In this document: positions 5,126-44,051 of the stretch, piece after piece | How the letters are laid out: each line of letters starts with the position of its first letter | How positions within the stretch are numbered: the first letter of the stretch is position 1 | NCBI RefSeq assembly: GCF_900104965.1 | Contig: NZ_LT629757.1 | Location: 992,001 to 1,056,000 of the forward strand | Length of the DNA stretch: 64,000 bases | Source: Nocardioides scoriae | Lineage (GTDB): Bacteria > Actinomycetota > Actinomycetes > Propionibacteriales > Nocardioidaceae | Reading direction: 5' to 3' | Translations under genes and position numbers: made by a program | The notes under the pieces: model-generated | Databases searched by the model: none | What the model was told of the DNA's origin: nothing | The model's input: only the letters and a program-made list of their open reading frames with translations

Positions 5126-5129
5126 CCGG

Positions 5130-5702: not shown

Positions 5703-5743
5703 GTGAGCTGCCCCTCCTCGGTCCGCGGCCGCAGGCAGCCGTC

Positions 5744-5759: not shown

Positions 5760-5767
5760 CTACCGGA

Positions 5768-5783
5768 TGTAGCAGCTGCTACA
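5768..5783. promoter_or_regulatory. TetR operator 2 (perfect palindrome)
   Basis: TGTAGCAGCTGCTACA is a perfect 16-bp palindrome, centred 24 bp from the first copy and 31 bp before the SMR start codon. Paired copies between divergent tetR and pump genes suggest repression of both. Confidence 0.75.
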
Positions 5784-5814
5784 AAGTCCTGCGCCCGCCC
5801 GAGGAAACCCGCTC

Positions 5815-6141: not shown

Positions 6142-6162
6142 CACCGGTGCCCCGCCCCCGGC

Positions 6163-20396: not shown

Positions 20397-21039
20397 GCGC
20401 GCGAGCACCTCCGAGCGGCTGTCCAAGGACCAGATCGCGGCCATGATCGCCGACGACATCCCGACCGGTGCCTTCGTCAACCTGGGGATCGGCCAGCCCA
20501 CGCTGGTGGCCGACCACCTCGACCTCGAGCGCGGCGTGGTCCTCCACACCGAGAACGGCATGCTCGGGATGGGACGCGCCGCGGTCGGCGACGAGGTCGA
20601 CCCCGACCTCATCAACGCCGGCAAGATCCCGGTCGTGGAGACCCCCGGGGCGTCGTACTTCCACCACGCCGACTCGTTCGCCATGATGCGCGGCGGCCAC
20701 CTCGACGTCTGCGTGCTCGGCGCCTTCCAGGTCGCGGTCAACGGCGACCTCGCCAACTGGCACACCGGCGCGCCCGACGCGATCCCCGCCGTCGGCGGCG
20801 CGATGGACCTCGCCATCGGCGCCAAGGACGTCTTCGTGATGATGACGCTCTTCGGCAAGGACGGCTCGTCCAAGCTGGTCCGCGAGTGCACCTACCCGCT
20901 GACCGGCGTGGCCTGCGTCAGCCGGGTCTACACCGACCACGGCGTCTTCGAGATCACGCCGGCCGGCGTACGGCTGCGGGAGGCGTACGGCGCCACCGCC
21001 GACGAGCTGCGCCACCGCACCGGCCTCGACCTGCTCTAG
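20389..21039 (+). CDS. pcaJ: 3-oxoacid (beta-ketoadipate) CoA-transferase subunit B
   Basis: A 216-residue beta subunit. The catalytic glutamate that forms the CoA thioester is in HTENGMLGMG (about Glu54), with GIGQPTLVADHL upstream. It is the last gene of pcaHGBLFIJ, so the operon reaches succinyl-CoA and acetyl-CoA without outside enzymes. A 32-bp repeat array begins right after its TAG stop. Confidence 0.94.
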   Translation: MGERASTSERLSKDQIAAMIADDIPTGAFVNLGIGQPTLVADHLDLERGVVLHTENGMLGMGRAAVGDEVDPDLINAGKIPVVETPGASYFHHADSFAMMRGGHLDVCVLGAFQVAVNGDLANWHTGAPDAIPAVGGAMDLAIGAKDVFVMMTLFGKDGSSKLVRECTYPLTGVACVSRVYTDHGVFEITPAGVRLREAYGATADELRHRTGLDLL

Positions 21040-21150
21040 CCGCCGAGCGGGCGATCGCAGCCCGCCAGGGAGCGTCGAGCGGGCGATCGCAGCACGCCAG
21101 GCGCCGCCGAGCGGGCGATCGCAGCACGCCGCGGAGCGTCGAGCGGGCGG
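21040..21150 (+). repeat. 32-bp tandem repeat array A (after pcaJ)
   Basis: Four copies of a unit with core GAGCGGGCGATCGC followed by AGCACGCC. The core starts at 21045, 21077, 21109 and 21141, an exact 32-bp period. It begins one or two bases after the pcaJ stop and reads in the pcaJ sense. The last unit is cut by the convergent end of the dehydrogenase gene (stop at 21151-21153). Confidence 0.9.
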
Positions 21151-22014
21151 TCAGTGCGCGGCGTACGTCGCCGCCATGTCCTCGTCGCCGTGGCCCGCGT
21201 CGACGGCGCGGGCGAGGTGGTCGCGGATGCCGGGCATGGCGCCGAGATCGACCCCGGCCGAGCCGGCGGCGGCCAGGATCAGCTCGACGTCCTTGAGCGC
21301 GCCCGACAGCGCGAACGACGGCTCGTAGCTGCCGGCGAGCATCGCCTTGCCCTTGAGCTGGACGTACGGCGCGTCCATCGCGCCGCCCGAGACCGCCTCG
21401 AGGAACAGCGCGGGGTCCAGGCCGAGCTCGCGGGTGAGCGTCAGCGAGTCGGCGACGCCCTCCAGCACGGTGACCACCCAGGCGTTGGCGGCGAGCTTGA
21501 GCCGGCTGCCGCCACCGGGCTGGTCGCCGACCCAGATGGTGCGACCGCCGATGGCCTCGAAGACGGGCCCGACCACGGCGCGCGCGGACTCCGGACCGGA
21601 GGCCAGCACGACGAGCGCACCGTCCTCGGCCGGCTTCTTGGTGCCGAGCACGGGGGCGTCGACGAGCGTCACGCCGAGGTCCTCGGCCAGCGCGACGAGG
21701 CGGTCCGAGCCGGCCACGCCGACGGTGCTCTGCTGGACCCACACCGTGTCGGCACCGAGGTGGCCGCGCGCCTGCTCCATGGTCTCGGCGACGCTGTCGG
21801 CGTCGTACAGCATGGTGAGGACGACGTCGGCGCCCTCGACCGCCTCGGCGACCGACCCCGCCACCGTCGCGACGTCGGCCAGCGGCTGCGCCTTCTCGGC
21901 GCTGCGGTTCCACACGGTCAGCGGCAGCCCCGCCGCGGCCAGGTTGCGGGCCATGCCGGCGCCCATCGTGCCGGTGCCGAGCAGGGTCACGGACGGGGTG
22001 GAGCTGGGGGACAT
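21151..22014 (-). CDS. NAD(P)-dependent beta-hydroxyacid dehydrogenase (HIBADH family)
   Basis: A 287-residue protein with a Rossmann motif (LLGTGTMGAGMARNL, residues 10-24), the substrate segment DAPVLGTKKPAEDG and the catalytic lysine in SRLKLAANAWV. The family includes 3-hydroxyisobutyrate, tartronate semialdehyde and 6-phosphogluconate dehydrogenases and imine reductases. The substrate here is unknown. The usual DAPVSGG is changed to DAPVLGT, which favours a less typical substrate. The gene lies between two repeat arrays in opposite orientations and has no obvious operon partner. Confidence 0.87.
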   Translation of the reverse strand: MSPSSTPSVTLLGTGTMGAGMARNLAAAGLPLTVWNRSAEKAQPLADVATVAGSVAEAVEGADVVLTMLYDADSVAETMEQARGHLGADTVWVQQSTVGVAGSDRLVALAEDLGVTLVDAPVLGTKKPAEDGALVVLASGPESARAVVGPVFEAIGGRTIWVGDQPGGGSRLKLAANAWVVTVLEGVADSLTLTRELGLDPALFLEAVSGGAMDAPYVQLKGKAMLAGSYEPSFALSGALKDVELILAAAGSAGVDLGAMPGIRDHLARAVDAGHGDEDMAATYAAH

Positions 22015-22067
22015 GGGGGTTCCTCTCGGTGGGGCTGCGGTCGCACGCCTCGTACCCCGTCCGGTCG

Positions 22068-22254
22068 TGCCGCAACTGCCCGCTGGGCGTCGCCTGAGGT
22101 GCTCCGAACGCCCGCTCGGCGTCCCCGCGCGTGCTGCGATCGCCCGCTCGGCGTCCCCGCGCGTGCTGCGATCGACCGCTCGGCGCTCCTGGGCGTGCTG
22201 GAAACGCCCGCTCGGCGGTCCTCGGCGTGCTGCGAACGCCCCCTCGGGGCGTGC
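22068..22254 (-). repeat. 32-bp tandem repeat array B (after fgd)
   Basis: Six units with exact 32-bp spacing (starts at 22068, 22100, 22132, 22164, 22196, 22228). On the plus strand they read TGCTGCGATCGCCCGCTCGG, which is the reverse complement of array A. In the sense of fgd (minus) they read GAGCGGGCGATCGC, directly after its TGA. The outer units are degenerate. Confidence 0.9.
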
Positions 22255-23259
22255 TCAGGCCAGGGCGCGGAGCCGCGGGAGCACGTCGCGGCCGAAGTCG
22301 CTCAGGAAGGTGTCCTGGTCGTGGCCGGGGGCGTGGAAGACGAGGTGGTCGAAGCCGGCGTCGAGGTAGGGCTGCACGGCGTCGACGACGCCGTCGGGGT
22401 CGGTCTCGACGATCCAGCGCTGGGCGACCTGCTCGATCGGCAGCTCGTCGGCGGCGCGGGCCATCTCGACCGGGTCGTCGAGGCCGTGCTTCTGCTCGGC
22501 GGTCAGCGACAGCGGGGCCCAGAACCGGCAGTTCTCCAGCGCGTCCTCGCGGGTCCGGGCGTAGGAGAGCTTGATCTCGATGGTGCGCTCGATCGCGGCC
22601 GGGTCCCGGTCCCCCGCCTCCGCGCCCGCGGCCACGGCGGGCAGCAGCTTGTCGGTGTAGAGGTCCATGCCCTTGCCGCTGGTGCAGATGAAGCCGTCGC
22701 CGGCGCGGCCGGCGTACTTCGCCACCACCGGGCCGCCGGCGGCGACGTAGATCGGGACCCCGCCCTCGGGACGGTCGTAGACGGTCGCCTCGTCGGTGGC
22801 GTAGTAGTCGCCCTCGAAGGTGACCCGCTCGCCGGCCCACAGCGCCCGCATCAGCCGCACCGACTCGCGCAGCCGCCCGAACCGCTCCTTGAACTCCGGC
22901 CACTCGAAGCGCGCGACCGACACCTCGTTGAGCGCCTCGCCGGTGCCGACTCCGAGGATCACGCGGTCGGGGTAGAGCGAGCCGAGGGTGCCGAACGCCT
23001 GCGCCAGCACCGCCGGGTTGTAGCGGAACGTCGGGGTGAGCACCGAGGTGCCCATCACGATCCGCTCCGTGCGCTCCCCCATGGCCGCCAGCAGCGACAT
23101 GGCGTACGGCGCGTGGCCGTCGACGTGGCGCCACGGCTGGAAGTGGTCGCTCACCATGACGCTGTCGAGCCCCACCTCCTCGGCCCGGACGGCCAGCTCG
23201 ACCAGCTGGCGGGGGGCGAACTGCTCGGCCGAGGCCTTGTAACCGATGCGCAGGGACAC
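22255..23259 (-). CDS. fgd: F420-dependent glucose-6-phosphate dehydrogenase
   Basis: 334 residues, nearly the length of mycobacterial FGD1 (336), with long blocks typical of it: [27 protein letters not shown] (catalytic His), [25 protein letters not shown] (catalytic Glu), CTSGKG and [14 protein letters not shown]. It oxidises glucose-6-phosphate and reduces coenzyme F420, which supplies F420H2 to other enzymes. The GTG at 23259 lies 5 nt after the histidine kinase stop. Its presence implies that the organism makes F420. Confidence 0.95.
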
Positions 23260-23264
23260 GAGGC

Positions 23265-25346
23265 TCAATCTGCCACACGCGCCTCGGCGGGGACGGTCGG
23301 GAGCCACACCTCCAGCAGGGTGCCGCCGTGGGGACCGGGACCGACGTCGAGACGACCCCCCGCCACGACGGCCCGGTCGTGCATGCTGGCCAGCCCCAGG
23401 TGGCCCGGTCGCCGCTCCAGGTCGGCGGCCCGCAGGCCCCGGCCGTCGTCGAGCACGCTCACCCGCACCCCGTGGTCCTCGCGGGCGACCTCGACGGCCA
23501 CCGACGCCGCCCCGGAGTGGCGGCGGGTGTTGACCAGGGCCTCCTTGGCGACGCGGTACGCCGTGACCCGCGCGCCGTCGGACAGCCCGCTGTCGGGGTC
23601 GCCGACGACGCTCCAGGCGATGCCCGTCCCGTCCAGGACGTACGCCGCGGCCTCCCGCAGCGCGGTCACCAGGTCGGTGCGCCGGGCCGGCGACTCGAGG
23701 TCGAAGAGCAGGTGACGCAGCCGGGCGGTGGCCCCGGCGAGCGACTCGTGCATCCGCCCCAGGTCACGGCGCTGGGCATCGTCGAGGGAGTCGCCCAGCT
23801 GCCGCTCGAGCAGGGACAGCCGCAGCTGCACCGCCGCCAGCGCCTGCACCGAGTCGTCGTGGACGTCGGCGGCGATCCGGCTGCGCTCGTCCTCCTGCGC
23901 CTCCACCAGGCGGGTCAGCAGCACCTGTCGCGTCTCGGCGAGCCGCCGCAGGTCCTCGCGGGCCTGGGTGAGGTCGGTGACGTCGCGCTGGATGCTGCCG
24001 AGGGCGAGGGGCTCCCCCGTCACCGGGCTGCGCATCACGAAGCTGTGGCTGAGCACCGGGACGTCGTCGCCCCCGTCCTGGTGGCGCAGCCAGGTCGACC
24101 ACTCCTGGTGACCGACGGCGCGCAGCTGCTCCATCGCGGCCGGGCCCCCGCCCGCGAGCACGTGGTCGGGGCGGAAGGACCGGTGGTCGAGCCGGCGCAC
24201 GTCGTCGTCGGACCCCAGGCCGGTCATGGTGCGCCCGGCGGGGTTGAGGTAGAGCAGGCGGCCGTCCAGGTCCGCGATGGCGATGAAGTCGTCCGAGGCC
24301 TCGACCAGGGCCACGAACCGCTCCCGCTCCTCGGCGCTGAAGCTGACCTGGTCGTCGCTCTCGCGCTGGCCGTCGCGCAGCGTCTGCAGGGTGCGGACCA
24401 TGGCCACCACGATGCCGAGGCCGAGCAGCGCGACCCCCGGCGCGGAGGGGTGGTCGAAGGGGGTGAGCACCACCAGGCCGACCAGGCACACCGTGGCGAG
24501 GACCGCGGTCCAGGCCAGGCCCGGGGCGGTGATCGACCGCGTGACGGCGGAGCGCTCCGGCTCCGCCGGCCCCGCTGCCGGTTCGGGCACGGTCCACGCC
24601 GCCAGCACGACCAGCGCGGTCGCCAGGTAGAGCAGTGCGCCCACCGGGTTGCCGGGTCGCCACACGCCCGCGGCCAGCATCACGAGGTAGGTCACGTCGA
24701 CGACGGCCGAGAGCACCACGCCGGCCAGGAGCAGCAGGTCGGCGGGCCGGGCGCGGAGACCGGCGGCGACCATGGCCGCGACCACGGCCAGCATCGCCAC
24801 GTCGAGCACCGGGTAGGCCAGGTTGACCGCGACCGCGTGGGGCGGCGTCCCCGGCGCCCCGAGCGGCCGGACCGCCATGTCCACCACCGCGACCGTGACC
24901 CCGCCCACCCCGAGCGCCGCGACGGCCCCGTCGAGCAGCAGCAGCCGCGGCAGGGCCCGTCGGCGCCGGGCCCCGCGCACCACGAGCGCGGCCAGGAACA
25001 GCAGCGCGGAGCCGACAAACAGGGCGTCGGCCGCCGAGGGGTAGGGCTGCGGGACCGCGGTGCGCACGAAGGTCCAGAAGACGACGAACCCCAGCGTCCG
25101 TGCGGTCACCGCGGCCGCGACCAGGCCCCACAGCCAGCGGCCCTCGCGCACGGTCGCGGCCCGCCACACCAGCGCGGCGCTCATCAGGGCGTAGCCGGCC
25201 CCCTGCAGGAAGCCGTCGACCTCCACCCGGAACCCCGGGCGCGACCGCACCCCGGGCACGGTGGACACGGCGTACACCGCTCCGATCGCGGCCACGACCG
25301 CGATCAGGACGCGCAGCCCACGGACGTGAGCCAGGCCCAGCGACAT
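23265..25346 (-). CDS. Orphan sensor histidine kinase (7-8 TM, PAS, HisKA_3)
   Basis: From the ATG at 25346 (GGAGGG upstream) the protein has 693 residues. The N-terminal 300 residues contain about eight transmembrane helices. A PAS domain follows ([28 protein letters not shown]...GSIQRDVT). Then a HisKA_3 helix with phospho-acceptor His496 (RIAADVHDD), and an HATPase domain with N-box [11 protein letters not shown] and G-box LDDGRGLR. This is the NarL-partner class, but no response regulator is adjacent. It ends just before fgd, so the two may be co-transcribed. The signal is unknown. A longer start at 25403 is possible. Confidence 0.88.
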
Positions 25347-25437
25347 CGGGGCCCCCTCCCGAGCGATCGGCGTGCCGACACGGTAGCCCGAACTCGTCTC
25401 CACCGGGAGAGGTGTGACCGCCCGCCGGCCGCGGACC

Positions 25438-26178
25438 CTAGCGGTCGACCAGGGTGAGCTCGAAGGCGTAGAGGTCGGGGCGGTAGACGTGGCGGCCGAA
25501 CTCGACGGCGCGGCCGGCGTCGTCGTACGCCGTGCGCTGCATCGTCAGCAGCGGCGAGCTGCGCTTCTCGTGGAGCAGCGTGGCCTCGCGGGCGCCCGCC
25601 CGGCGGGCACCGATCCGCTGCTTGGCCACCCGCATCAGGATCCCCGAGCGCCGCAGCAGCGCGTAGAGGCCGTCGTCGGCCAGGTCGTGGGCCCCGAGGT
25701 CGACCACGTCGAGCGGCAGGTAGTTGCGCATCAGGGCGAGCGGCTCCTCGCCGATCCACCGCAGCCGCTCCAGGCTCCACACCGGCGCCCCGGGGTCGAC
25801 CTGCAGCTCGGAGGCGACCTCCTCGTCGGCGGGGGCCTGCGTCAGCTCGAGGAGGTCGGTGCGGGGCTGCTGGCCGGCCCCGGTGAGGTCGTCGTGGAGC
25901 GAGGTCAGCTCCAGCGAGCGGCGCACGCGTCCCTGCACCACCTGGGTGCCGACCCCGCGCTTGCGCACCAGCAGGCCCTTGTCGACCAGCAGCTGGATGG
26001 CCTGGCGCATGGTCGGGCGGGAGAGCCCGAGGTCGCGCGCCAGGGACACCTCGTTGTCGATCTTGTCCCCGGGTGCGATCTCGCCCGAGGCGATGGCACG
26101 CTCGAGCTGCTCGGCGACCTGGAAGTAGAGCGGCACCGGGCTCCCGCGGTCCAGGGTGATGGGCGGGCCGGAGGTCAT
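25438..26178 (-). CDS. GntR/HutC-family repressor of the inositol genes
   Basis: A 246-residue protein with an N-terminal winged helix (residues about 14-80, PLYFQVAEQLERAIASGEIAPGDKI, SRPTMRQAIQLLVDKGLLVRKRGVGTQV) and a C-terminal UTRA ligand domain (ERLRWIGEEPLALMRNYLP...VEFGRHVYRPDLYAFEL). It is divergent from the iol operon, with two TGTC-N2-GACA palindromes between them. By context it is the IolR-type repressor; the inducer would be an inositol catabolite (inference). Confidence 0.9.
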   Translation of the reverse strand: MTSGPPITLDRGSPVPLYFQVAEQLERAIASGEIAPGDKIDNEVSLARDLGLSRPTMRQAIQLLVDKGLLVRKRGVGTQVVQGRVRRSLELTSLHDDLTGAGQQPRTDLLELTQAPADEEVASELQVDPGAPVWSLERLRWIGEEPLALMRNYLPLDVVDLGAHDLADDGLYALLRRSGILMRVAKQRIGARRAGAREATLLHEKRSSPLLTMQRTAYDDAGRAVEFGRHVYRPDLYAFELTLVDR

Positions 26179-26216
26179 GACCGGAGCCTACCGGCGGAGC
26201 GCCTCGCTTGTCAGTA

Positions 26217-26226
26217 TGTCAGGACA
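26217..26226. promoter_or_regulatory. GntR operator 1
   Basis: TGTCAGGACA, inside TATGTCAGGACAAATA, between the divergent GntR and iol genes and just upstream of the TTGACA -35 box. Confidence 0.7.
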
Positions 26227-26231
26227 AATAG

Positions 26232-26237
26232 TTGACA
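26232..26237 (+). promoter_or_regulatory. iol operon -35 box
   Basis: TTGACA is a perfect -35 hexamer. The matching -10 is poor (possibly GAGACT at 26256-26261, 18-bp spacer). It sits between the two operators. Confidence 0.5.
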
Positions 26238-26272
26238 CCCTGCCCGCGCGCGGTGGAGACTTCCCGGGTCCC

Positions 26273-26294
26273 CGAGTTTGTCACGACAAACTCG
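26273..26294. promoter_or_regulatory. GntR operator 2 (22-bp palindrome)
   Basis: A perfect 10-2-10 inverted repeat whose left arm is CGAGTTTGTC and whose core is TGTC-AC-GACA. It is centred 62 bp (about six helical turns) from operator 1 and lies in the iol 5' leader, 21 bp before the first start codon. Confidence 0.85.
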
Positions 26295-26315
26295 ACCGAT
26301 CCGAGAGGCCGCAGC

Positions 26316-27236
26316 ATGTCCGAGCAGACCACGTCCCCCCTCGACCGGATCGCCGGCGCCCCGATCTCGTGGGGCGTGTGCGAGGTCCCCGGCTGGGGCC
26401 ACCAGCTGCCCGCCGACCGGGTCCTCGGCGAGATGCGCGACCTCGGCCTGACCGCCACCGAGTTCGGCCCCGACGGGTTCCTGCCCGACGCGCCCGCGGC
26501 CAAGGCCGCCTTCCTGCGCGAGCGCGGGCTGCGTGCCGTCGGCGGCTTCCTGCCGGTGCTGCTCCACGACGCCTCCCACGACCCGATGCCCGAGGTCGAC
26601 GCCTTCGTCGACGGCTGCCTGGCCGCGGACGCCGGCGTCGTGGTGCTGGCCGCCACCACCGGCACCGACGGGTACGACGTCCGTCCCGAGCTCGACGACG
26701 TGCAGTGGAAGACCCTGCTCGACAACCTCGACCGGATCGCCGAGCGGGCCTCCGAGCGCGGCGTGCTGGCCGTCGTCCACCCCCACATGGGCACCATGGT
26801 CGAGGGCGCCGACGACGTGCAGCGCGTGCTCGACGGCTCCAGCATCGGCCTGTGCGTCGACACCGGCCACCTCGTCGCCGCCGGCGCCGACCCGGTCGCG
26901 ATCACGCTCGCCCACACCGACCGCGTGCGCCACGTCCACCTCAAGGACGTCGACGCCGCCCGGGCAGCCCGCGTGGTGGCCGGCGAGGTCTCCTTCTCCG
27001 ACGCCGTCGCCGGCGGGATGTGGACCCGGCTGGGCGAGGGCTCGGTCGACGTGACCGCGATGATCGACGCCCTCGAGGACGCGGGGTACGACGGCTGGTA
27101 CGTCCTCGAGCAGGACCTGATGCTGCTCGACGGCGAGCCCGGGGGCGAGGGCCCCGTCGCCGACGTGCGCCGCTGCCTGGCGTTCGTGCTCGACCGCCTC
27201 GAGGCCCGTCGCACCGGCGCGGGGGCGGACGCGTGA
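26316..27236 (+). CDS. iolE: Inosose dehydratase/isomerase-like TIM-barrel protein
   Basis: A 306-residue xylose-isomerase-like (AP endonuclease 2) barrel starting with APISWGVCEVPGWG and carrying likely metal ligands in VVHPHMGTMVE, CVDTGHLVAAG, VHLKDVD and VLEQDLML. It probably acts on scyllo-inosose, either as the IolE dehydratase or the IolI isomerase. IolE fits better because no other iolE candidate is in the operon. First gene of the operon; its stop overlaps iolC (GTGA). Confidence 0.8.
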   Translation: MSEQTTSPLDRIAGAPISWGVCEVPGWGHQLPADRVLGEMRDLGLTATEFGPDGFLPDAPAAKAAFLRERGLRAVGGFLPVLLHDASHDPMPEVDAFVDGCLAADAGVVVLAATTGTDGYDVRPELDDVQWKTLLDNLDRIAERASERGVLAVVHPHMGTMVEGADDVQRVLDGSSIGLCVDTGHLVAAGADPVAITLAHTDRVRHVHLKDVDAARAARVVAGEVSFSDAVAGGMWTRLGEGSVDVTAMIDALEDAGYDGWYVLEQDLMLLDGEPGGEGPVADVRRCLAFVLDRLEARRTGAGADA

Positions 27237-28207
27237 GCGCGCCCTTCGACGTCATCACGATGGGGCGGGTCAGCGTCGACGTCTACCCGACCCAGGTGGG
27301 CGTGCGGCTCGAGGACGTGACGACCTTCGGCAAGTTCCTGGGCGGCAGCTCGACCAACGTCTCGGTCGCCGCCTCCCGCCTGGGCCACCGGGCCGCGACC
27401 ATCACGCGGGTCGGCGAGGACCCCTTCGGCCGCTTCGTGCACCAGGCGCTCGCCGGCTTCGGCGTCGACGACCGGTGGGTCTCGGCCGTGCCGGGGCTGC
27501 AGACGCCCGTCGTGTTCTGCGAGATCTTCCCGCCCGACGACTTCCCGCTCTACTTCTACCGGCGCCCGAAGGCCCCCGACCTGGAGATCTCGCCCGACGA
27601 CCTCGACTACGACGCCATCCGGGCGGCCGAGGTCTTCTGGGTGACCGTCACCGGCCTGTCGGAGTCGCCCAGCCGCGAGGCCCACCTGGCCGCGCTCGAG
27701 GCCCGCGGGTCCGACCGGACCACGGTCCTCGACCTCGACTACCGGCCGATGTTCTGGGGGTCCGAGGCCGAGGCCACCGCCCAGGTCGAGGCCGCGCTGC
27801 CCCACGTGAGCGTGGCCGTCGGCAACCTCGAGGAGTGCCGGGTGGCCGTCGGCGAGTCCGAGCCCGCCGCCGCGGCGAAGGCGCTGCACGACGCCGGCGT
27901 CAGCCTGGCCGTCGTGAAGCAGGGACCCCTCGGCGTGCTGGGCAGCCGTCGCCGACCCGACGGCACCGAGGACCACGTCGTGGTGCCGCCCGTGCCGGTC
28001 GAGGTGGTCAACGGCCTCGGCGCCGGCGACGCCTTCGGCGGCGCGCTGGTCCACGGCCTGCTCGAGGGCAGCGACCTGCGGACCATGCTCACCTGGGCCA
28101 ACGCCGCCGGGTCCTTCGTCGCGGGCCAGCTGGCCTGTGCCGACGCGATGCCGTCGGTCGACGAGCTGGGCACCTACCTGCGCGAGCACGAGAAGAGCAC
28201 CCGATGA
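27233..28207 (+). CDS. iolC: 5-dehydro-2-deoxygluconokinase
   Basis: A 324-residue PfkB-family kinase. The N-terminal motif is GKFLGGSSTNVSVAASRLG and the catalytic Asp is in NGLGAGDAFGGALVHGLL (near residue 265). It phosphorylates 5-dehydro-2-deoxygluconate in myo-inositol breakdown. The GTG start is at 27233 by overlap, and the stop overlaps the next ATG. Confidence 0.92.
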   Translation: MSAPFDVITMGRVSVDVYPTQVGVRLEDVTTFGKFLGGSSTNVSVAASRLGHRAATITRVGEDPFGRFVHQALAGFGVDDRWVSAVPGLQTPVVFCEIFPPDDFPLYFYRRPKAPDLEISPDDLDYDAIRAAEVFWVTVTGLSESPSREAHLAALEARGSDRTTVLDLDYRPMFWGSEAEATAQVEAALPHVSVAVGNLEECRVAVGESEPAAAAKALHDAGVSLAVVKQGPLGVLGSRRRPDGTEDHVVVPPVPVEVVNGLGAGDAFGGALVHGLLEGSDLRTMLTWANAAGSFVAGQLACADAMPSVDELGTYLREHEKSTR

Positions 28208-29124
28208 CCACCCTGTCCCCGGCGCCCGCCACGAGCGGGCCGCGCGTCGGACCCGACGACGTCGCCCGCCTCGTGGCCACCCGCGTCGCGCACCCCGAGC
28301 GCGTCGCCGAGCTGTACGCCGCCCGCCGGGCCCCCGAGGGCCTCGTCGGCCGCACCGGCCGGCTGATGCTCATCGCCGCCGACCACCCCGCCCGCGGCGC
28401 CCTGCGCGCCGGCCCCGACCCGCTGGCCATGGGCGACCGGGCGCAGCTGCTCGACCGGCTGGTCCGGGCGCTGGCCCGACCGGGGGTCGACGGCTTCCTC
28501 GGCACCCCCGACGTCGTCGAGGACCTGCTGCTGCTCGGCGCTCTCGAGGACAAGGTGGTCATCGGGTCGATGAACCGCGGCGGCCTCGCCGGCACCTGCT
28601 TCGAGATGGACGACCGGTTCACCGGCTACGACGCCGCCACCATCGCCGCCGCCGGTCTCCAGGGCGGCAAGATGCTGCTGCGCATCGACCCCGAGGACCC
28701 CACCACCGTGCGCACCCTCGAGGCCTGCGCCGGCGCGGTGTCCGAGCTGGCCGGCGAGCGCGTGATGGCCATGGTCGAGCCCTTCATCTCGGGCCGCGAC
28801 GAGTCCGGCCGGGTCCGCAACGACCTCTCGGCCGAGGCCGTGGTCCGCTCGGTCGGCGTCGCCGCCGGCCTGGGCACCACCTCGGCCCACACCTGGCTCA
28901 AGCTGCCCGTGGTCGCCGACATGGAGCCGGTGCTGGCCGCCTCGGCGCTGCCGGTGCTGCTGCTCGGCGGCGAGGTCGCCGACGACGCCGAGGCCCAGCG
29001 GGCCTCCTGGCGGGCCGCCCTCGCCAGCCCGGTCGTGCGCGGCATGGTCGTGGGCCGCTCGCTGCTCTTCCCGCCCGACGGCGACGTCGAGCGGGCCGTC
29101 GACGCCTGCGTGGAGCTGATGTGA
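28204..29124 (+). CDS. Cgl0159-type (beta/alpha)8 aldolase-like protein
   Basis: A 306-residue class I aldolase-fold protein of the kind always found in actinobacterial inositol operons. Visible features are LMLIAADHPARGALRAG, GLQGGKMLLRID (candidate Schiff-base Lys) and AHTWLKLPVV. It probably splits 2-deoxy-5-keto-gluconate 6-phosphate in place of Bacillus IolJ, which is inference from pathway and context. It overlaps iolC (ATGA) and iolB (GTGA). Confidence 0.75.
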   Translation: MTTLSPAPATSGPRVGPDDVARLVATRVAHPERVAELYAARRAPEGLVGRTGRLMLIAADHPARGALRAGPDPLAMGDRAQLLDRLVRALARPGVDGFLGTPDVVEDLLLLGALEDKVVIGSMNRGGLAGTCFEMDDRFTGYDAATIAAAGLQGGKMLLRIDPEDPTTVRTLEACAGAVSELAGERVMAMVEPFISGRDESGRVRNDLSAEAVVRSVGVAAGLGTTSAHTWLKLPVVADMEPVLAASALPVLLLGGEVADDAEAQRASWRAALASPVVRGMVVGRSLLFPPDGDVERAVDACVELM

Positions 29125-30007
29125 GCGAGGTCCTCGGTCCCGTGGTCCGACGTGGCGAGGCGGCCGCCGGGCCCTTCGCCCTGGAGGTGACGCCCGCCTC
29201 CGCAGGCTGGACCCACAGCGGGCTGCGGGTCCTCGAGCTCGCCCCCGGGCAGTCCGAGACCGTGGCGACCGGCGGCAGCGAGGTCGTGGTGCTCTCGCTC
29301 GGCGGCGCGGCCGGCGTGGTGGTCGACGGGGCGGCGTACGAGCTGGAGGGGCGTCGCGACGTCTTCGACGGCCCGAGCGACGCGGTCTACGCGCCCCGTG
29401 ACGCGGAGGTGGTGCTCTCCAGCCGCGCGGGCGCCCGGCTCGCGCTGTGCTCCGCCGTGTGCGAGACGCGGCTGCCGGCGGCGTACCTGCCCCGGAGCGA
29501 CGTGCCCGTCGAGCTGCGCGGCGCCGGACGGGCCAGCCGCCAGGTCAACAACTTCGGGGTCCCGGGCGTGCTCGAGGCCGACCGGATCATCGCCTGCGAG
29601 GTCCTCACCCCGGGCGGCAACTGGTCGTCGTGGCCGCCGCACAAGCACGACGAGGAGCGCGACGGCGAGACCCGCCTGGAGGAGATCTACTACTTCGAGG
29701 TGGCCGACGGCCCGTCCGGGCCCGGCTTCGGGCTGCAGCGCGTCTACGGCCACGAGCACGCCGAGATCGACGTCACCGCCGAGGTCCGCACCGGCGACGT
29801 CGTCCTCATCCCCCACGGCTGGCACGGCCCCTCGGTGGCCACCCCCGGCTACGACCTGTACTACCTCAACGTGATGGCCGGTCCCGGGCCCGAGCGCTCG
29901 TGGCAGATCTGCGACGACCCCGCCCACGCCTGGGTCCGCGGCACCTGGCCCGACCAGGACGTCGACCCGCGGCTCCCGTTCCCGGGCGCCACCCCAGGAG
30001 GAGACCG

Positions 30008-30011
<4 letters not shown>
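29121..30011 (+). CDS. iolB: 5-deoxy-glucuronate isomerase
   Basis: A 296-residue bicupin. The metal-binding histidines and glutamate are in WSSWPPHKHD, LEEIYYFEV and IPHGWHGPS. It isomerises 5-deoxy-glucuronate to 5-dehydro-2-deoxygluconate. The GTG start is at 29121, and the C-terminus PGGDR encodes the ribosome site AGGAGGAGA for iolD. Confidence 0.92.
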
Positions 30012-31971
<1,960 letters not shown>

Positions 31972-31975
<4 letters not shown>

Positions 31976-33471
31976 GCCACACCTACGACCACTGGATCAA
32001 CGGGGCGGCGACCCCCGGCGAGAGCGACCGCACGGGCGACGTCTACGACCCGGCGCTCGGCTCGGCCGCGAGGCAGGTGCGCCTGGCGACCGCCGGCGAC
32101 GTCGACCTGGCCGTGGCCGCCGCCGCCGAGGCCTTCACCACCTGGAGCGAGAGCTCCGTGGTCGCCCGCTCGCGGGTGATGTTCGCCTTCCGCGAGCTGC
32201 TGGTGCAGCACGAGGACGAGCTGGCGCAGCTGATCTCGGCCGAGCACGGCAAGACCCTCGACGACGCCAGGGGCGAGGTGGTCCGCGGCCGCGAGGTCGT
32301 GGAGTTCGCGTGCGGCATCGCGCAGCTGCTCAAGGGCGAGTACAACGACCAGGTCTCCGGCGGCATCGACTCCCACTCGTTCCGCCAGCCGCTCGGCGTC
32401 GTCGCCGGCATCACGCCGTTCAACTTCCCGATCATGGTCCCGCTGTGGATGCACCCGGTCGCGATCGCGTGCGGCAACACCTTCGTGCTCAAGCCGTCCG
32501 AGCGCGTGCCCGGCGCCTCCGACCTGGTGGCGCGGCTCTACCAGCAGGCCGGCCTGCCCGACGGCGTGTTCAACGTCGTGCACGGCGACAAGGTCGCGGT
32601 CGACCGGATCCTCGAGCACCCCGACGTCGCCGCGGTGTCCTTCGTGGGCTCCACGCCGATCGCGCGCTACGTCCACGAGGGCGCCAGCCGCACCGGCAAG
32701 CGCGTGCAGGCCCTCGGTGGCGCCAAGAACCACGCCGTCGTGATGCCCGACGCCGACCTCGACTTCGCCGCCGACCACATCGTGGCCGCGGGCTACGGCT
32801 CCGCCGGGCAGCGCTGCATGGCGATCTCGGCCGTCGTGGCCGTCGGCCCCGCCGCCGACACCCTGGTCGACAAGATCCGCGAGCGCAGCGTCGACCTCAC
32901 CGTGGGCCCCGGCACCGGTGAGGGCGTCGACATGGGCCCCGTGGTCACCCGCGCCTCGCGCGACCGGATCGTCGACTACGTCGGCCAGGGCGAGGACGCC
33001 GGCGCCAAGGTCGTCGTGGACGGCCGTGAGGTCACCGTCGAGGGCCACGAGGAGGGCTTCTTCGTCGGCCCCACGCTGCTCGACCAGGTCACCACCGACA
33101 TGTCGGTCTACACCGACGAGATCTTCGGTCCGGTCCTGACCGTGCTGCGCGTGCCGACCCTGGAGGCGGCGATCGAGCTGATCAACGCCAACCCCTACGG
33201 CAACGGAACCGCGGTGTTCACCTCCTCCGGGGAGGTCGCCCGCACCTTCCAGCGCAAGGTCACCGTCGGCATGATCGGCATCAACGTGCCGGTGCCCGTC
33301 CCGATGGCGTTCCACTCCTTCGGCGGCTGGAAGGACTCGCTGTTCGGCGACCACCACATCCACGGTCCCGAGGGCGTGCGCTTCTACACCCAGGCCAAGG
33401 TCGTCACCACCCGCTGGCCCCACGTGGCCGAGGAGTCGCTGGCGCAGCTCAACTTCCCGACCGCCCAGTGA
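31972..33471 (+). CDS. mmsA: CoA-acylating methylmalonate-semialdehyde dehydrogenase
   Basis: A 499-residue aldehyde dehydrogenase with the motifs GVVAGITPFNFPIMVP, LGGAKNHAVV and catalytic Cys in GSAGQRCMAIS (about Cys282). It turns malonate semialdehyde into acetyl-CoA (as IolA) or methylmalonate semialdehyde into propionyl-CoA. Its place in the iol operon favours the IolA role. It overlaps iolD and iolG. Confidence 0.93.
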
Positions 33472-34502
33472 GCGGGCCAGTGAGCGGACCAGCGAGCGGG
33501 CCGGTGTCGGGGGTCCTGCGCGTCGGGGTCATCGGCGCCGGCGCGATGGGCGCCTCCCACGTGCGGACCCTGTCCGAGAGCGTGCCCGCAGCCCGGGTGA
33601 CGGCCGTCTACGACCGCGACGTCGCCCGGGCCGGCGAGGTCGCGGGGGCCGTGGGTGCGGTGGCGACCGACTCGGCCGAGGCCCTGGTGGCCTCGGGCGA
33701 GGTCGACGCCGTCGTGGTCGCCTCCCCCGACTTCACCCACGCCGACCTGGCCGTGGCCTGCATCGACGCCGGCAAGCCGGTCCTGTGCGAGAAGCCGCTG
33801 GCCGTGACGGCCAAGGACGCCCTGCGGGTGGTCGAGGCGGAGGTCGCGGGTGGACGGCAGCTGGTGCAGGTCGGCTTCATGCGCCGCTTCGACCCCGGCT
33901 TCCTGGCGCTGCGGCGCCACGTCGCCGACGGGACGCTGGGCGAGGTGCGCCTGGTGCACGCCGTGCACCGCAACGCGACCAACTCGACCAGCACCGACGA
34001 CGCGACGCTGGTGACCGGGTCGATGGTCCACGAGCTCGACATCGTCCCGTGGCTGCTCGACGACCCGCTGGTCGGCATCCGCGTCGAGTCCCCGGTGGCC
34101 GAGGGGTTCCGCGACCCGCAGCTGGCGACGCTGTGGACCCGCAGCGGCGTCATGGTGACCGTCGACATCTTCGCCAACGCGGCGTACGGCTACGACGTGC
34201 GCTGCGAGGTCGTCGGCACCCGCGGCACGGCCGCGCTGTCGCCGGTCGCCCCGGTCAGCCTGCGGGCTGCCGGTCGCGAGGGCACCGCGCTCGGCCAGGA
34301 CTTCGTGGCGCACTTCCTCGAGGCCTACCGGGTCGAGCTCTCGGCCTGGGCCGAGGCCGCCGCCCGCGGCGGGGTCGACGGGCCGAGCGCCTGGGACGGC
34401 TACCTGGCCAACGTCGCCGCCGAGGCCGGCGTGGCGTCGCTGTCGACGGGCAGCCGCGAGGTCATCGACCCCGGGGAGCGTCCGGCGCTGTACGCCGGCT
34501 GA
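33468..34502 (+). CDS. iolG: Inositol 2-dehydrogenase
   Basis: A 344-residue Gfo/Idh/MocA oxidoreductase with GVIGAGAMGASHVR (NAD binding), the catalytic Lys in VLCEKPLAVTA and His in GSMVHELDIVPWLL. It starts inositol breakdown by making scyllo-inosose. The first residues repeat SGP (a low-complexity start caused by GAGCGGGCC-type repeats), so the true start may be a downstream GTG. It is the last gene of the operon. Its 3' end overlaps the convergent FUSC gene by 41 bp. No inositol transporter is in the window. Confidence 0.9.
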   Translation: MSGPVSGPASGPVSGVLRVGVIGAGAMGASHVRTLSESVPAARVTAVYDRDVARAGEVAGAVGAVATDSAEALVASGEVDAVVVASPDFTHADLAVACIDAGKPVLCEKPLAVTAKDALRVVEAEVAGGRQLVQVGFMRRFDPGFLALRRHVADGTLGEVRLVHAVHRNATNSTSTDDATLVTGSMVHELDIVPWLLDDPLVGIRVESPVAEGFRDPQLATLWTRSGVMVTVDIFANAAYGYDVRCEVVGTRGTAALSPVAPVSLRAAGREGTALGQDFVAHFLEAYRVELSAWAEAAARGGVDGPSAWDGYLANVAAEAGVASLSTGSREVIDPGERPALYAG

Positions 34503-35553
34503 GCGGGCCGGCCCGCGCCACCAGCGCCGCGCCGAGCAGCGCCACCGCGAGGCCGAGCAGGGAGCCGACGACGGTCTCCACGCCGCGGTCGAGCAGCAGC
34601 GGGCCGACGGGGCGCGGCGCGGCCAGCTGGCCCATCAGCAGCGCCAGCGGGGTGATGGCCAGCAGCGCCAGGGCGTAGTGGCGCGTCACCACGAGCTCGG
34701 TCAGCAGCTGGAGCACCCCGACCACCACCACGACGGCGACGTCGTCGGTCACCACCAGCAGCAGGGCCGCCGCCACCACCAGCCCCAGCAGCGTCCCGGC
34801 GATGCGGTGGGCGGCCCGCTCCCAGCGGTGGCGGCGGTCGCGGCCGGTGACGACGGCGACGGCGGCCACCATCGACCAGTAGGGGTGGCCGATGCCGAGC
34901 CCCGTCGAGACCGCTCCCGAGAGCACCACCGAGACGGCGGCCAGGGCCGGGTAGAGCGTCGTGCCGCGCGGGACCGCGGACGGGGTGGGTGCCCCGGCCT
35001 GCGCCCGGGTGCCCGGCGGGGCGGCGGGCCGAGGTGGCTGCGGTCCCTGCGGCACGACCAGCCCGCTGAGCAGGCCCACCACCACGGCGTACGCCGCGCT
35101 GGCCGCGGCCACCGCCAGCGCCACCGGCACCTGGTCGGGCTCGCGCGCCACGCTGGCGACCGCCCCGAAGGCGAAGACCAGGAACAGCGGGCCGGGCGGA
35201 CGCCACTCCTCGAGCACCACGATCGCGCTGCCGAGGGCCGCGACCACCCCGCAGCCGAGCACCAGCCACCACTCCCGGTCGGCGAGCGTCCCGGCGGCCG
35301 CGCCGGCCGTCACGCACGTCGTGAGCAGCGCCGCGCCAAGGAGCTGGCGCCGCAGGCGCCGACCAGTCGGCTGGTTGCGGCCGTAGAGGGCCGCGAACGC
35401 CCCGAACGCGGCGTACGACGTCCAGTCGGTGCGGCCCAGGGCCAGCACCACGAGCAGCGACCCGGCCACCGCGACGGTCGCCTGGGCGGCGGCCCGGCGG
35501 TCGTCGGGGCGCCGCGGCCCGAGGTGGAGCCACCCGGGTCTGGCTGCGGTCAC
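34462..35553 (-). CDS. FUSC-family membrane protein
   Basis: A 363-residue integral membrane protein with two blocks of about five to six transmembrane helices (AAAQATVAVAGSLLVVLALG..., and ALLAITPLALLMGQ...), a proline-rich loop near residues 170-195 and the FUSC_2-like segment GIGHPYWSMVAAVAVVTGRDRRHRWERAAHRIAGTLLG. The family resembles aromatic acid exporters (AaeB/YccS), but the substrate is unknown. GTG start at 35553. It is convergent with iolG and overlaps it by 41 bp. Confidence 0.82.
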   Translation of the reverse strand: MTAARPGWLHLGPRRPDDRRAAAQATVAVAGSLLVVLALGRTDWTSYAAFGAFAALYGRNQPTGRRLRRQLLGAALLTTCVTAGAAAGTLADREWWLVLGCGVVAALGSAIVVLEEWRPPGPLFLVFAFGAVASVAREPDQVPVALAVAAASAAYAVVVGLLSGLVVPQGPQPPRPAAPPGTRAQAGAPTPSAVPRGTTLYPALAAVSVVLSGAVSTGLGIGHPYWSMVAAVAVVTGRDRRHRWERAAHRIAGTLLGLVVAAALLLVVTDDVAVVVVVGVLQLLTELVVTRHYALALLAITPLALLMGQLAAPRPVGPLLLDRGVETVVGSLLGLAVALLGAALVARAGPLSRRTAPDAPRGR

Positions 35554-35594
35554 CGGCGCTCCCGTCCCCCGTGCGGCTCCCGACGCGGCTGCGG

Positions 35595-35600
35595 CAGGAT
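35595..35600 (+). promoter_or_regulatory. Leaderless -10 box of the DUF1330 gene
   Basis: CAGGAT followed by GGCGGC and then the ATG at 35607, a spacing typical for leaderless transcripts in Actinobacteria. Confidence 0.45.
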
Positions 35601-35606
35601 GGCGGC

Positions 35607-35897
35607 ATGACTGCCTACTGGATCAGCATCTACCAGGAGATCACCGACGAGGCCAAGCTGGCGGCGTACGCCGAGCTGGCCGGTCCGGCCATCACGGCCG
35701 CCGGCGGTCGCTTCATCGCCCGCGGCATGCCCGCCCAGGTCTACGAGGCCGGCCGCGAGACCCGCTCGGTGCTGGTGGAGTTCCCCTCGGTCGAGGTCGC
35801 CCGCGAGGCCCACGACAGCCCGGCCTACCAGGAGGCCCTGGCCGCCCTCGACGGCGGCGCCGTCCGCGACCTGCGGATCGTCCCCGGCGTCGAGTAG
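35607..35897 (+). CDS. DUF1330 family protein
   Basis: A 96-residue dimeric alpha+beta barrel protein: MTAYWISIYQEITDEAKLAAYAELAGPAI, GGRFIARG, VLVEFPSVEVAREAHDSPAYQEAL, all typical of DUF1330. The function is unknown. The ATG at 35607 is chosen over one at 35571 because it fits the family start and the leaderless -10. A 32-bp repeat array follows its stop. Confidence 0.88.
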   Translation: MTAYWISIYQEITDEAKLAAYAELAGPAITAAGGRFIARGMPAQVYEAGRETRSVLVEFPSVEVAREAHDSPAYQEALAALDGGAVRDLRIVPGVE

Positions 35898-35898
35898 C

Positions 35899-35997
35899 CC
35901 GCCGAGCGGGCGATCCCAGCACGCCCCGGCCCGCCGAGCGGGCGGTCCCAGCACGCCCCACGCCGCCGAGCGGGCGATCGCCGCCCGCTCGGCGGCG
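35899..35997 (+). repeat. 32-bp tandem repeat array C (after DUF1330 gene)
   Basis: Three units in the sense of the DUF1330 gene, core GAGCGGGCG at 35904, 35936 and 35968 (exact 32-bp period), starting one base after its TAG. The last unit is followed by an inverted half-unit, which makes a long hairpin. Confidence 0.88.
35961..35997. terminator. Bidirectional terminator built from repeat units
   Basis: CGCCGCCGAGCGGGC (35961-35975) and GCCCGCTCGGCGGCG (35983-35997) form a perfect 15-bp stem with a 7-nt loop between convergent genes, three bases from the stop of the DUF347-type gene. Confidence 0.75.
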
Positions 35998-36000
35998 CCC

Positions 36001-36786
36001 TCACACCTCGCGCACGGGTGAGGTCCGGTCGACCTTCGTGATGCTGAGGAACACCACCGTGGCCAGGATGGTCGCGAGGAAGACCACGCTGGTCACCAGC
36101 GTGCCGAGCCCGAGGCCGCCGTCGGCGTGCGGGCTGGCGAGGAAGTCGCCGATGTTGGCGCCGAGCGGCCGGGTGAGGACGTAGGCCAGCCAGAAGGACA
36201 GCACAGGGCCCAGGCCCGCGCGCCACGCGACGAGCACCAGGGCGATCAGGCCGGCGGGCAGCAGGATCGAGGCACCCGGCGACCAGCCGGTCAGCTCGAG
36301 GGTCCAGTCGCCGACGGCCGTGCCGAGGGCGAAGGTCACCAGGACGACCAGCCAGTACCAGCCCTCGCGGGGCGTCGTGGTGATCGAGTGGATCGACAGG
36401 GTGCGCTCGCGGGCGTACCACGCGCCGAAGACCACCGCGAGCAGCACGGCGAAGCCCGTCGAGCTGATCCACAGGGGCACGCCGTGCGCGTCGGTGAGGT
36501 TGTCGGTCAGCAGGGTGCCGACGACGCTGATCAGCACGACCGCCAGCCAGTAGATGCCTGGGACGTAGCGGCGGCTGCGGAACTGCGCCACGAGCACCGC
36601 CACCAGCGCGACCGTGAACAGCACGGTCGTGTTGGTCAGGCCGAAGCCCAGGGTCTCGTTGACGTAGTCGGCGAAGCTCTCGCCGACGGTCGTGCACAGG
36701 ATCTTGATGACCCAGAAGAAGACCGTGACTTCCGGGACCTTGTTGAGCATCTGGCGGCGGCTGGGCGCTGGGGTGGTCGTCGTCAT
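36001..36786 (-). CDS. DUF347/COG4705 membrane protein
   Basis: A 261-residue integral membrane protein with about eight helices in internal repeats; each repeat carries a conserved acidic pattern (KILCTTVGESFADYVNETLG; FALGTAVGDWTLE; RPLGANIGDFLA). This matches COG4705. Members have been linked to metal (manganese) handling, which I cannot confirm from sequence. ATG at 36786. The gene is bracketed by repeat arrays C and D in opposite orientations. Confidence 0.8.
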   Translation of the reverse strand: MTTTTPAPSRRQMLNKVPEVTVFFWVIKILCTTVGESFADYVNETLGFGLTNTTVLFTVALVAVLVAQFRSRRYVPGIYWLAVVLISVVGTLLTDNLTDAHGVPLWISSTGFAVLLAVVFGAWYARERTLSIHSITTTPREGWYWLVVLVTFALGTAVGDWTLELTGWSPGASILLPAGLIALVLVAWRAGLGPVLSFWLAYVLTRPLGANIGDFLASPHADGGLGLGTLVTSVVFLATILATVVFLSITKVDRTSPVREV

Positions 36787-36838
36787 GGGTGGCAGCCTGG
36801 GCGATCCCGCCTGGACGCGACCTGACCGTGCTGCGGCG

Positions 36839-36958
36839 TACGACATCCGCCCGCTCGGTGTCCCACGGCGTACGACGATCGCCCGCTCGGCGTCCCGCGG
36901 CGTACGACGATCGCCCGCTCGACGTACCCCGGCGTGGTGCAATCGCCCGCTCGGCGGA
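36839..36958 (-). repeat. 32-bp tandem repeat array D (after acyl-CoA dehydrogenase)
   Basis: Four units with starts at 36839, 36871, 36903 and 36935. In the sense of the acyl-CoA dehydrogenase gene they read GAGCGGGCGATCG followed by TCGTACGCC; the other arrays have CAGCACGCC at this place. The first unit starts within 10 nt of the TGA. Confidence 0.88.
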
Positions 36959-36962
36959 GGGG

Positions 36963-38126
36963 TCAGGCGTGGGTGATGGCGCCCGAGTCGTCCTTCTTCA
37001 GGGAGCGGCTGACGACCATCCGCTGGATCTGGTTGGTGCCCTCGAAGATCTGCATCACCTTGGCCTCGCGCATGTAGCGCTCGACGGGGAAGTCCTTGGT
37101 GTAGCCGGCGCCGCCGAGGACCTGGACGGCGTCGGTGGTGACCTTCATGGCGTTGTCGGTGGCGACCAGCTTGGCGATCGAGGCCTCGCGGCCGAAGGGT
37201 CGGCCGAGGTCGCGCAGGCGGGCGGCGTGCAGGGTGGTCTGGCGGGCGCTCTGCACGGCGGCCTCCATGTCGGCCAGCACGAAGGCCAGGCCCTGGTGGT
37301 CGATGATCGCCGACCCGAAGGTCTCGCGCTCGCGGGCGTAGGCCACCGCGCGGTCCAGCGCGCCCTGGGCCAGGCCCACGGCGACGGCGGCGATGCCGAG
37401 GCGTCCGGAGTCGAGGCCCGCCAGGGCGATCCGCAGGCCGTCGCCCTCCTCGCCGAGGCGGCGCTCGACCGGGACCCGGACGCCGTCGAAGCGCATCGTG
37501 GCGGTCGCCGAGCCGGTGAGGCCCATCTTGTGCTCGGGCGGGTCGGCCGACAGGCCCTCGGCGTCGGCCGGCACGAGGAAGCAGGAGATGCCGTTGCGGT
37601 CGTCGGAGGTGCGGGCCATCACCTTGTAGAAGTCGGCGTGGCCGCCGTGGGTGGTCCAGGCCTTGGCGCCGTCGATGACGTAGTCGTCGCCCTCGCGCCT
37701 GGCGCGCGTGCGCATCGCCGCGGGGTCGGAGCCGGCGTGGGCCTCGGACAGGCAGTAGGCGCCGAGCTGGGTGCCGCCGAGCATCTCGGGCAGCCAGGCC
37801 AGCTGCTCGGGGGTGCCGCGGGTCGCGAGGCCGAAGCAGGCCAGGCCGTGGACGCTGACGCCCACCCCGACGCTGGCCCAGACGCTCGAGATCTCCTCGA
37901 GCACCTGCAGGTAGACCTCGTAGGAGAGCCCGCCGCCGCCCACCTCCTCGGGGTAGGGCAGGCCCAGCAGGCCCATCTCCCCCAGGCTCGCGAACACGTC
38001 GCGGGGGAAGGTCTCGGTCGCCTCGGCCTCGACCGACCGGTCGCGCAGGTCGTCCTGGGCGACCTGGCGGACCAGCCGCACGAGGTCGGCGGCCTCCTCG
38101 CTGGGCAGGTGGCGGTCAGCCGGCAT
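36963..38126 (-). CDS. Acyl-CoA dehydrogenase
   Basis: A 387-residue flavoprotein with the family signatures AYCLSEAHAGSDPAAM (ACADs_1), QVLGGAGYTKDFPVERYMREA (ACADs_2) and the catalytic Glu in QIFEGTNQIQR. It oxidises a short- or medium-chain acyl-CoA at the alpha-beta bond and passes electrons to ETF. ATG at 38126 with AGGAGG upstream. It is a single gene with no beta-oxidation neighbours, so the chain length is open. Confidence 0.93.
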   Translation of the reverse strand: MPADRHLPSEEAADLVRLVRQVAQDDLRDRSVEAEATETFPRDVFASLGEMGLLGLPYPEEVGGGGLSYEVYLQVLEEISSVWASVGVGVSVHGLACFGLATRGTPEQLAWLPEMLGGTQLGAYCLSEAHAGSDPAAMRTRARREGDDYVIDGAKAWTTHGGHADFYKVMARTSDDRNGISCFLVPADAEGLSADPPEHKMGLTGSATATMRFDGVRVPVERRLGEEGDGLRIALAGLDSGRLGIAAVAVGLAQGALDRAVAYARERETFGSAIIDHQGLAFVLADMEAAVQSARQTTLHAARLRDLGRPFGREASIAKLVATDNAMKVTTDAVQVLGGAGYTKDFPVERYMREAKVMQIFEGTNQIQRMVVSRSLKKDDSGAITHA

Positions 38127-43959: not shown

Positions 43960-44051
43960 CCTGCCGGGCTGACCTGCCGGGCTGACCTGCCGGGCTGGCC
44001 TGCCGGGCTGGCCTGCCGGGCTGACCTGCCGGGCTGACCTGCCGCGCCGGC
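43948..44051 (+). repeat. 13-bp minisatellite over the WcbI-like stop codon
   Basis: Eight contiguous copies of CTGCCGGGCTGAC (two with GGC at the end, the last one degenerate). The first copy contains the TGA stop codon (43957-43959). Because 13 is not a multiple of three, the reading frame changes in each copy. Confidence 0.9.

Follow-up and report, generated by a model that had tools for sequence, protein, structure and literature searches.

Inward-facing arrays of a polar tandem repeat at gene 3' ends in Nocardioides scoriae and its relatives

The repeat family described here was found in a 64,000-bp stretch of the Nocardioides scoriae genome (contig NZ_LT629757.1, positions 992,001 to 1,056,000; hereafter, the window), in which four arrays of a 32-bp unit follow stop codons. 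In this genome and in related genomes, the arrays form arms that face each other (-> <-), mostly between convergent genes, and this facing rule describes their placement better than a rule based on the strand of the stop codon. Usually, direct copies come first and opposite copies after them, the two runs pointing inward (->-> <-<-). As an explanation, we tentatively favor helically phased protein half-sites, which would mark the 3' ends of genes and limit read-through or collision.

The initial annotation of the window had claimed four arrays with a 32-bp period, all sense to the preceding gene and beginning within about 10 nt of its stop codon. All four arrays are present at their places (Table 1), and they start 4, 8, 5, and 9 nt past the respective stop codons. 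Convergent genes flank arrays 1 and 3, which thus adjoin two stop codons, only the nearer of which fits the rule; for convergent arrays generally, the strand rule rests on distance, since such an array follows one stop codon and precedes the other. Arrays 1 and 2 point at each other, as do arrays 3 and 4, and in both pairs the arms are 0.8 to 0.9 kb apart with one gene in between. The final unit of array 1 overlaps the end of the convergent dehydrogenase gene, at its stop codon, and the last unit of array 3 forms, with one inverted core, an inverted repeat directly downstream of the convergent DUF347 gene's stop codon. Across the window, GAGCGGGCGATCG with up to two mismatches gave 36 matches, compared with a mean of 14.05 and a maximum of 22 in shuffled sequences.

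The unit has a conserved core, (C/T)GA(G/C)CGGGC(A/G)NT(C/T), and beyond it a region reaching to about position 23 in which the consensus varies by genome. The remaining spacer, about 9 nt, is loosely conserved. Tandem spacing in N. scoriae was 32 bp in 102 of 102 cases; likewise, 107 successive unit pairs contained 358 substitutions (137 in the spacer), with every spacing at 32 bp. No core dimer was found at 31 bp in this genome with a pattern one base shorter than the unit. Relatives found with a 32-bp pattern showed spacings of 32 bp (246), 31 bp (14), and a few others. Because that pattern fixed the period, the search was redone with 16 to 46 bp allowed, and 144 of 150 spacings among the Nocardioides matches listed were 31 or 32 bp. 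The 32-bp period holds for all four window arrays but not throughout the family; many Nocardioides genomes have 31 bp. Identity between units was 0.841 within arrays of N. scoriae and 0.711 between clusters. As judged from the repeat pattern, with cas genes outside the search, a clustered regularly interspaced short palindromic repeat (CRISPR) array was rejected, because the variable part is about 9 nt and the copies differ in the core region too.

The window belongs to a complete genome of 4.06 Mb, in the same genus as Marmoricola sp. Leaf446. The exact 14-mer CGAGCGGGCGATCG occurred at 36 places in this genome (reversed control, 0), and a degenerate form of the unit gave 135 matches (reversed control, 1); both counts contain a few duplicates (9 among the listed unit matches), apparently from overlapping contig ends. 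Among the matches listed (for one pattern, 100 of 103), a scope that applies to all cluster counts for this genome, there were at least 18 clusters, and the regions around them held at least 30 arrays with 137 units. A two-unit cluster at 2204 kb fell under the threshold of the array count, and positions 1-392 and 4051826-4052217 of the contig, apparently one place, were entered once. The contig ends themselves (1-6657 and 4051826-4058482) seem to overlap by about 6.6 kb, sharing arrays and genes at matching offsets, and the assembly was probably left untrimmed at circular closure.

Beyond this genome, the tandem core search with spacings of 16 to 46 bp matched 39 of 215 Nocardioides genomes, 26 of which carry at least five matches, whereas the reversed control gave four matches in all. 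A core-dimer scan of 394 genomes, N. scoriae and its family included, found any match in 28; matches outside the family are scattered, controls match too, and they were taken as chance or short-period repeats. A scan of named genomes yielded at least 80 loci, and 15 from other taxa were removed from the counts. The relatives' arrays come from searches that require the core, so degenerate arrays are missed, and duplicates were removed by sequence. The genes flanking the arrays are ordinary core genes, including those for an era-like GTPase, serine hydroxymethyltransferase, relA/spoT, cytochrome b, rbpA, and H+-pyrophosphatase (30 of 39 flanking proteins scanned). Among the papers listed in our literature searches, none has a title or abstract that describes the family.

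A tabulation over the genome and its relatives, which the initial annotation had set as the test that could refute the strand rule, extended the rule beyond the window. Gene calls come from a codon-usage script instead of an annotation pipeline; miscalling may account for some exceptions. In N. scoriae, 26 of 30 arrays follow a gene on the same strand (25 by script and array 3121291, which overlaps a gene end, by hand), mostly 4 to 38 nt past the stop codon; the array at 611136 lies 296 nt from its same-strand gene. Two exceptions, at 475906 and 3247505, are the far arms of facing pairs, and a third, at 2575577, carries an inverted core at its far end. Among the relatives, 158 of 193 distinct arrays (191 with a called gene on that side) follow a same-strand gene at a median distance of 2 nt, with 145 of these 158 starting between -30 and 40 nt relative to the stop codon. 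In 50 arrays, the TGA stop codon is the first unit's own (C/T)GA (YGA).

The facing arrangement describes the placements better. Of the 193 arrays of the relatives, 116 lie between convergent genes, 8 are divergent, and 4 are at locus ends; those between codirectional genes are sense in 40 cases and antisense in 25. A facing array lies within 1500 bp of 150 of the 193, no array is back-to-back with another (0/193), and 22 of the 25 arrays that are antisense to both neighbors have a facing array. In N. scoriae, 9 of 18 clusters are directly convergent, compared with 57 of 420 neighboring gene pairs (18 of 165 if the gap is at least 80; P = 2e-4) in a background made of an evenly spaced genome sample and the window. 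In three further clusters, namely the two pairs of the window and the rbpA-pgl locus, a single gene separates the arms. Some Nocardioides genomes carry compact elements, often with two units each way, in which the outermost YGA is the TGA stop codon.

The distance between facing cores falls into classes. A search that allowed spans of 29 to 59 bp matched 23 of 215 Nocardioides genomes and gave 61 elements, a count that omits genome G184 (five elements), a sibling of G208. The spans were 36 to 39 bp (15 elements), 46 to 48 bp (36), 52 bp (1), and 56 to 59 bp (9), and thus 60 of 61 elements fall into three classes about one helical turn per step apart. Over all loci, 81 distinct facing pairs were found, and the 74 with a span of up to 95 bp gave a best period of 10.9 bp. 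In addition, span differences of at least 4 bp were seen in eight groups of orthologous junctions, and five of these groups had moved between classes, in steps of 8 to 12 or 18 to 21 bp. A conserved core with near-constant helical spacing, as in an array of DNA-binding sites, is present, with exceptions among the orthologous groups.

Several array positions are common to different species. The pcaJ-dehydrogenase-fgd order of the first window pair, with arrays on both sides, is also found in Marmoricola sp. Leaf446 (L303), and an array position between M13 peptidase and methylenetetrahydrofolate reductase genes is common to Leaf446 and others. The order rbpA-unnamed gene-pgl with arrays on both sides occurs at six loci of differing sequence, although at the Soil805 locus rbpA itself lies beyond the stretch examined. 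The protein encoded between the facing arrays in this order (328 amino acids; L067:4210-5196 and relatives) has no Pfam match at 1e-5. Because gene order recurs together with the arrays in Leaf446 and at the rbpA-pgl loci, the arrangement looks like conserved gene order, and mobile cassettes between facing arrays were rejected. The second window pair has no close counterpart among the relatives' loci examined. At shared positions, the likeness of units between N. scoriae and Leaf446 was 0.672 (7 arms), compared with 0.676 for arbitrary arms of the two genomes, and different loci inside N. scoriae showed a likeness of 0.765.

The quantized tandem and facing spacing near helical turns favors a DNA-binding role, which the initial annotation had mentioned as an alternative. 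In the explanation we prefer, the units would be half-sites of a putative sequence-specific DNA-binding protein of these actinobacteria, lying on one helical face, three turns apart in tandem (31 or 32 bp) and about whole turns apart when facing. Arrays that sit at the 3' ends of certain genes and read away from the stop codon would face each other where genes converge. A bound array would then most likely act as a polar end-of-gene barrier between converging genes, curbing read-through and the collision of transcription, or absorbing supercoils. With closely spaced arms, the transcript would also make a long hairpin, which might help. Arrays of this kind would resemble the Sal boxes bound by TTF-I after rRNA genes, which are tandem, polar protein sites downstream of a gene, although those are eukaryotic and of one locus type, and the protein here is putative.

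A wider form of this proposal, which we consider rather unlikely, is that the Nocardioidaceae use an end-of-gene signal read on duplex DNA, with a fast-drifting putative protein on polar half-sites, spaced by three turns at the 3' ends of chosen genes, whose facing stacks where genes converge would stop RNA polymerase or fix supercoils, the sites being rewritten along with the protein while the positions persist. If true, such a signal would give bacteria an equivalent of polar terminators that work through a bound protein. High-GC actinobacteria have few U-tract terminators, and how their transcription ends and how converging genes are protected are poorly settled. In array-rich species, each genome offers dozens of natural sites for tests, and the family yields a sharp prediction, namely that whole-turn spacing should matter and half-turn shifts should break function. 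Shared positions with drifted site sequences would also be a handle for finding the trans-acting factor by covariation.

Several points weigh against the half-site explanation. Protein binding, phasing due to binding, and an effect on transcription are steps that we infer from the arrangement. Divergent arrays occur among the relatives, as counted above, and the fourth exception in N. scoriae, at 1883044, is isolated and unaccounted for. Three of the eight differing orthologous groups are off-class (differences of 5-6, 15, 19, 34, and 54 bp), the steps in the five fitting groups are not sharply 10.5 bp, and two of the nine long elements (G116 and G208) hold an extra core copy inside. The span classes could come partly from a few founder forms copied about; since five of eight groups changed class, founder copying explains them in part at most. 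The strict spacing of 31 or 32 bp could likewise result from homogenization or from two pairing arms held in register. As for rewriting, loci inside Leaf446 are alike at 0.677, no more than between genomes, and orthologous arms of Soil805 and N. sediminis are alike at 0.750 (nine comparisons with repeats), compared with 0.704; genome-wide rewriting is therefore only partly borne out, and the argument from drift is weak. Finally, the compact elements are near-perfect palindromes with an RNA fold at a mean z of -11.0 (n = 17, one strand), and their inner arms agree at the variable RN letters of the core somewhat more often, in 23 of 31 cases, compared with 16 and 17 for tandem neighbors. This agreement and the folds favor pairing in those genomes, either as RNA or as a cruciform.

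The main rival, and a strong one for the compact elements, is an RNA-level bidirectional 3'-end element, in which facing arms of the transcript would form a long hairpin closely past the stop codon. This hairpin would either end transcription with no need of a U-tract or shield the mRNA end, and tandem copies would multiply the chances of pairing. We regard this as possible but somewhat doubtful for the family as a whole. The close placement past stop codons, many of which are part of the first unit itself, agrees with it, as do the complete facing elements between codirectional genes, shown by the antisense arms with a facing array, and the perfect hairpin of the window at 35961-35997. Close facing pairs in N. 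scoriae fold far more strongly than shuffled sequences (mean z of -7.8; n = 9), and the other strand is strong too. In contrast, lone arrays are unstructured relative to dinucleotide shuffles (mean z of -0.20 sense and 0.32 antisense; 3 of 30 below -2 in sense; n = 30), so that a GC-rich hairpin past the stop codon is strong in close facing pairs and absent in most lone arrays. Moreover, for 33 of the 193 arrays no facing array lies within 1500 bp and no inverted core within 140 nt, the arms of the window pairs are separated by a gene, and steps of 10 to 11 bp are left without a reason.

If pairing were a selected property, facing arms should match. In N. scoriae their match was lower than in permuted pairings (0.694 compared with 0.724; 1981 of 2000 permutations were higher), and in Soil805 and N. 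sediminis it was not clearly different from permuted pairings. In the compact elements, identity was 0.888 for the inner pair and 0.871 and 0.865 for tandem neighbors (sign-flip test, 1511/10000). The group "misc" mixes species, which invalidates its arm-identity test (arms more alike than permuted), and this test was not used. Pairing may thus matter in the compact forms, and it is not kept in the long arrays of N. scoriae. Majority core letters add a separate observation: in eight of nine facing pairs less than 100 bp apart in N. scoriae, the G/C letter of the core differs between the arms (one tie), as if perfect long palindromes were avoided.

Signals of intrinsic termination were also sought. 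U-tracts followed 0 of 18 element ends in N. scoriae and 2 of 122 in relatives. No canonical terminator was found at the arrays, and the sole terminator-like site in 20500-37500, at 26291-26305, lies away from them. Rfam covariance models gave no match up to an E value of 1 in 20000-38000, and solitary hairpins with an ACCGGGC stem were found at 17 places in the genome compared with 8 for the control, which does not support widespread occurrence. The arrays resemble bidirectional intrinsic terminators in lying past stop codons and in forming a two-way hairpin when the arms are close, but they differ in the missing U-tract, the lack of a close partner arm in some cases, the tandem multiplication, and the helical spacing classes. 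The initial annotation had read its strand rule as evidence for an RNA-level element in the 3' untranslated region; strong folding of close facing pairs is consistent with that reading, although the strand rule does not imply it, lone arrays are unstructured, and complementarity between the arms is not maintained in N. scoriae.

A third explanation, which we consider improbable, is that the arrays are mobile or selfish repeats like repetitive extragenic palindromic (REP) sequences and bacterial interspersed mosaic elements (BIME), surviving between convergent genes or near stop codons, with gyrase or nucleoid-protein binding secondary. According to passages of two articles (PMC2817692, PMC1525189), REP/BIME elements of enterobacteria, Pseudomonas, and Stenotrophomonas are extragenic and dispersed, often lie at convergent gene ends, and have inverted copies, regular spacing in clusters, and species-specific sequence, all of which is like the arrays, whose unit consensus also varies between genomes. 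The same passages state that these elements bind gyrase (BIME-2 in particular), integration host factor (IHF), and polymerase I and affect mRNA stability and Rho-dependent termination (PMC2817692, PMC1525189), and by analogy DNA and RNA roles could go together in the arrays as well. Unlike REP/BIME elements, however, the array unit is not palindromic, as the folding of lone arrays indicates; the copies run head to tail and then face once without alternation; and the arrays start a few nucleotides past the stop codon and keep their orientation to the gene. Orientation and facing order are thus nonrandom, unlike insertion, and some positions are common to several species. A Y1_Tnp gene, encoding the REP-associated tyrosine transposase (RAYT), was found in 0 of 7 array-bearing genomes searched (control positive in 5 of 14), which rules out RAYT-driven REPs for these seven. 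The family therefore misses the three REP/BIME-defining features tested (palindromic unit, alternation, and RAYT gene); it resembles REP/BIME elements by location and bidirectional terminators minus the U-tract.

A neutral satellite, made of slippage-expanded duplications of an old terminator arm with functionless extra copies, would suit the long, locally homogeneous arrays of N. scoriae but is very improbable given the conserved core beside a variable spacer, the uniform spacing of 32 bp in that genome, and the recurrence of matches among Nocardioides genomes. Mycobacterial interspersed repetitive units and exact tandem repeats (MIRU/ETR) are likewise short, tandemly repeated, and located near the ends of actinobacterial genes, with another unit length; we know of no facing-pair rule for them, unlike the arrays described here.

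Table 1. Arrays and adjoining genes in the window (positions counted from the first base of the window)
Feature	Position	Strand	Remarks
Array 1	21044-21153	+	4 units of 32 bp each; starts 4 nt past pcaJ stop
Array 2	22055-22246	-	6 units (including tail of last unit); starts 8 nt past luciferase-like (fgd) stop
Array 3	35903-35998	+	3 units; starts 5 nt past DUF1330 stop
Array 4	36826-36953	-	4 units (including tail of last unit); starts 9 nt past acyl-CoA dehydrogenase stop
Perfect 16-bp inverted repeat, 5-nt loop	35961-35997		Formed by one inverted core and the final unit of array 3
CoA-transferase (pcaJ-like), Pfam CoA_trans	20389-21039	+	Precedes array 1; gene caller and Pfam
3-Hydroxyisobutyrate-dehydrogenase-like (NAD_binding_2, NAD_binding_11)	21151-22014	-	Between arrays 1 and 2
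Luciferase-like monooxygenase (fgd-like)	22255-23259	-	Precedes array 2
DUF1330 gene	35607-35897	+	Precedes array 3
DUF347 repeat protein	36001-36750	-	Between arrays 3 and 4
Acyl-CoA dehydrogenase	36963-38126	-	Precedes array 4

Other repeats were observed in the window. A 13-bp unit, CCTGCCGGGCTGA, is repeated in tandem at 43947-44044 (7.5 copies, 97% match), and a 39-bp tandem repeat lies at 59227-59314 (2.3 copies, 89%). Another dispersed hairpin, which is centered on a SalI site and has the core TTTCCCCGGTCGACCGGGGAAA, was present in four copies in a 464-kb sample that includes the window, with a fifth in another region (window position 52636; L282:10047, L289:2534, L289:5018, and L077:5519). 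Several copies lie directly past stop codons, and this hairpin is possibly a further gene-end element of the N. scoriae genome.

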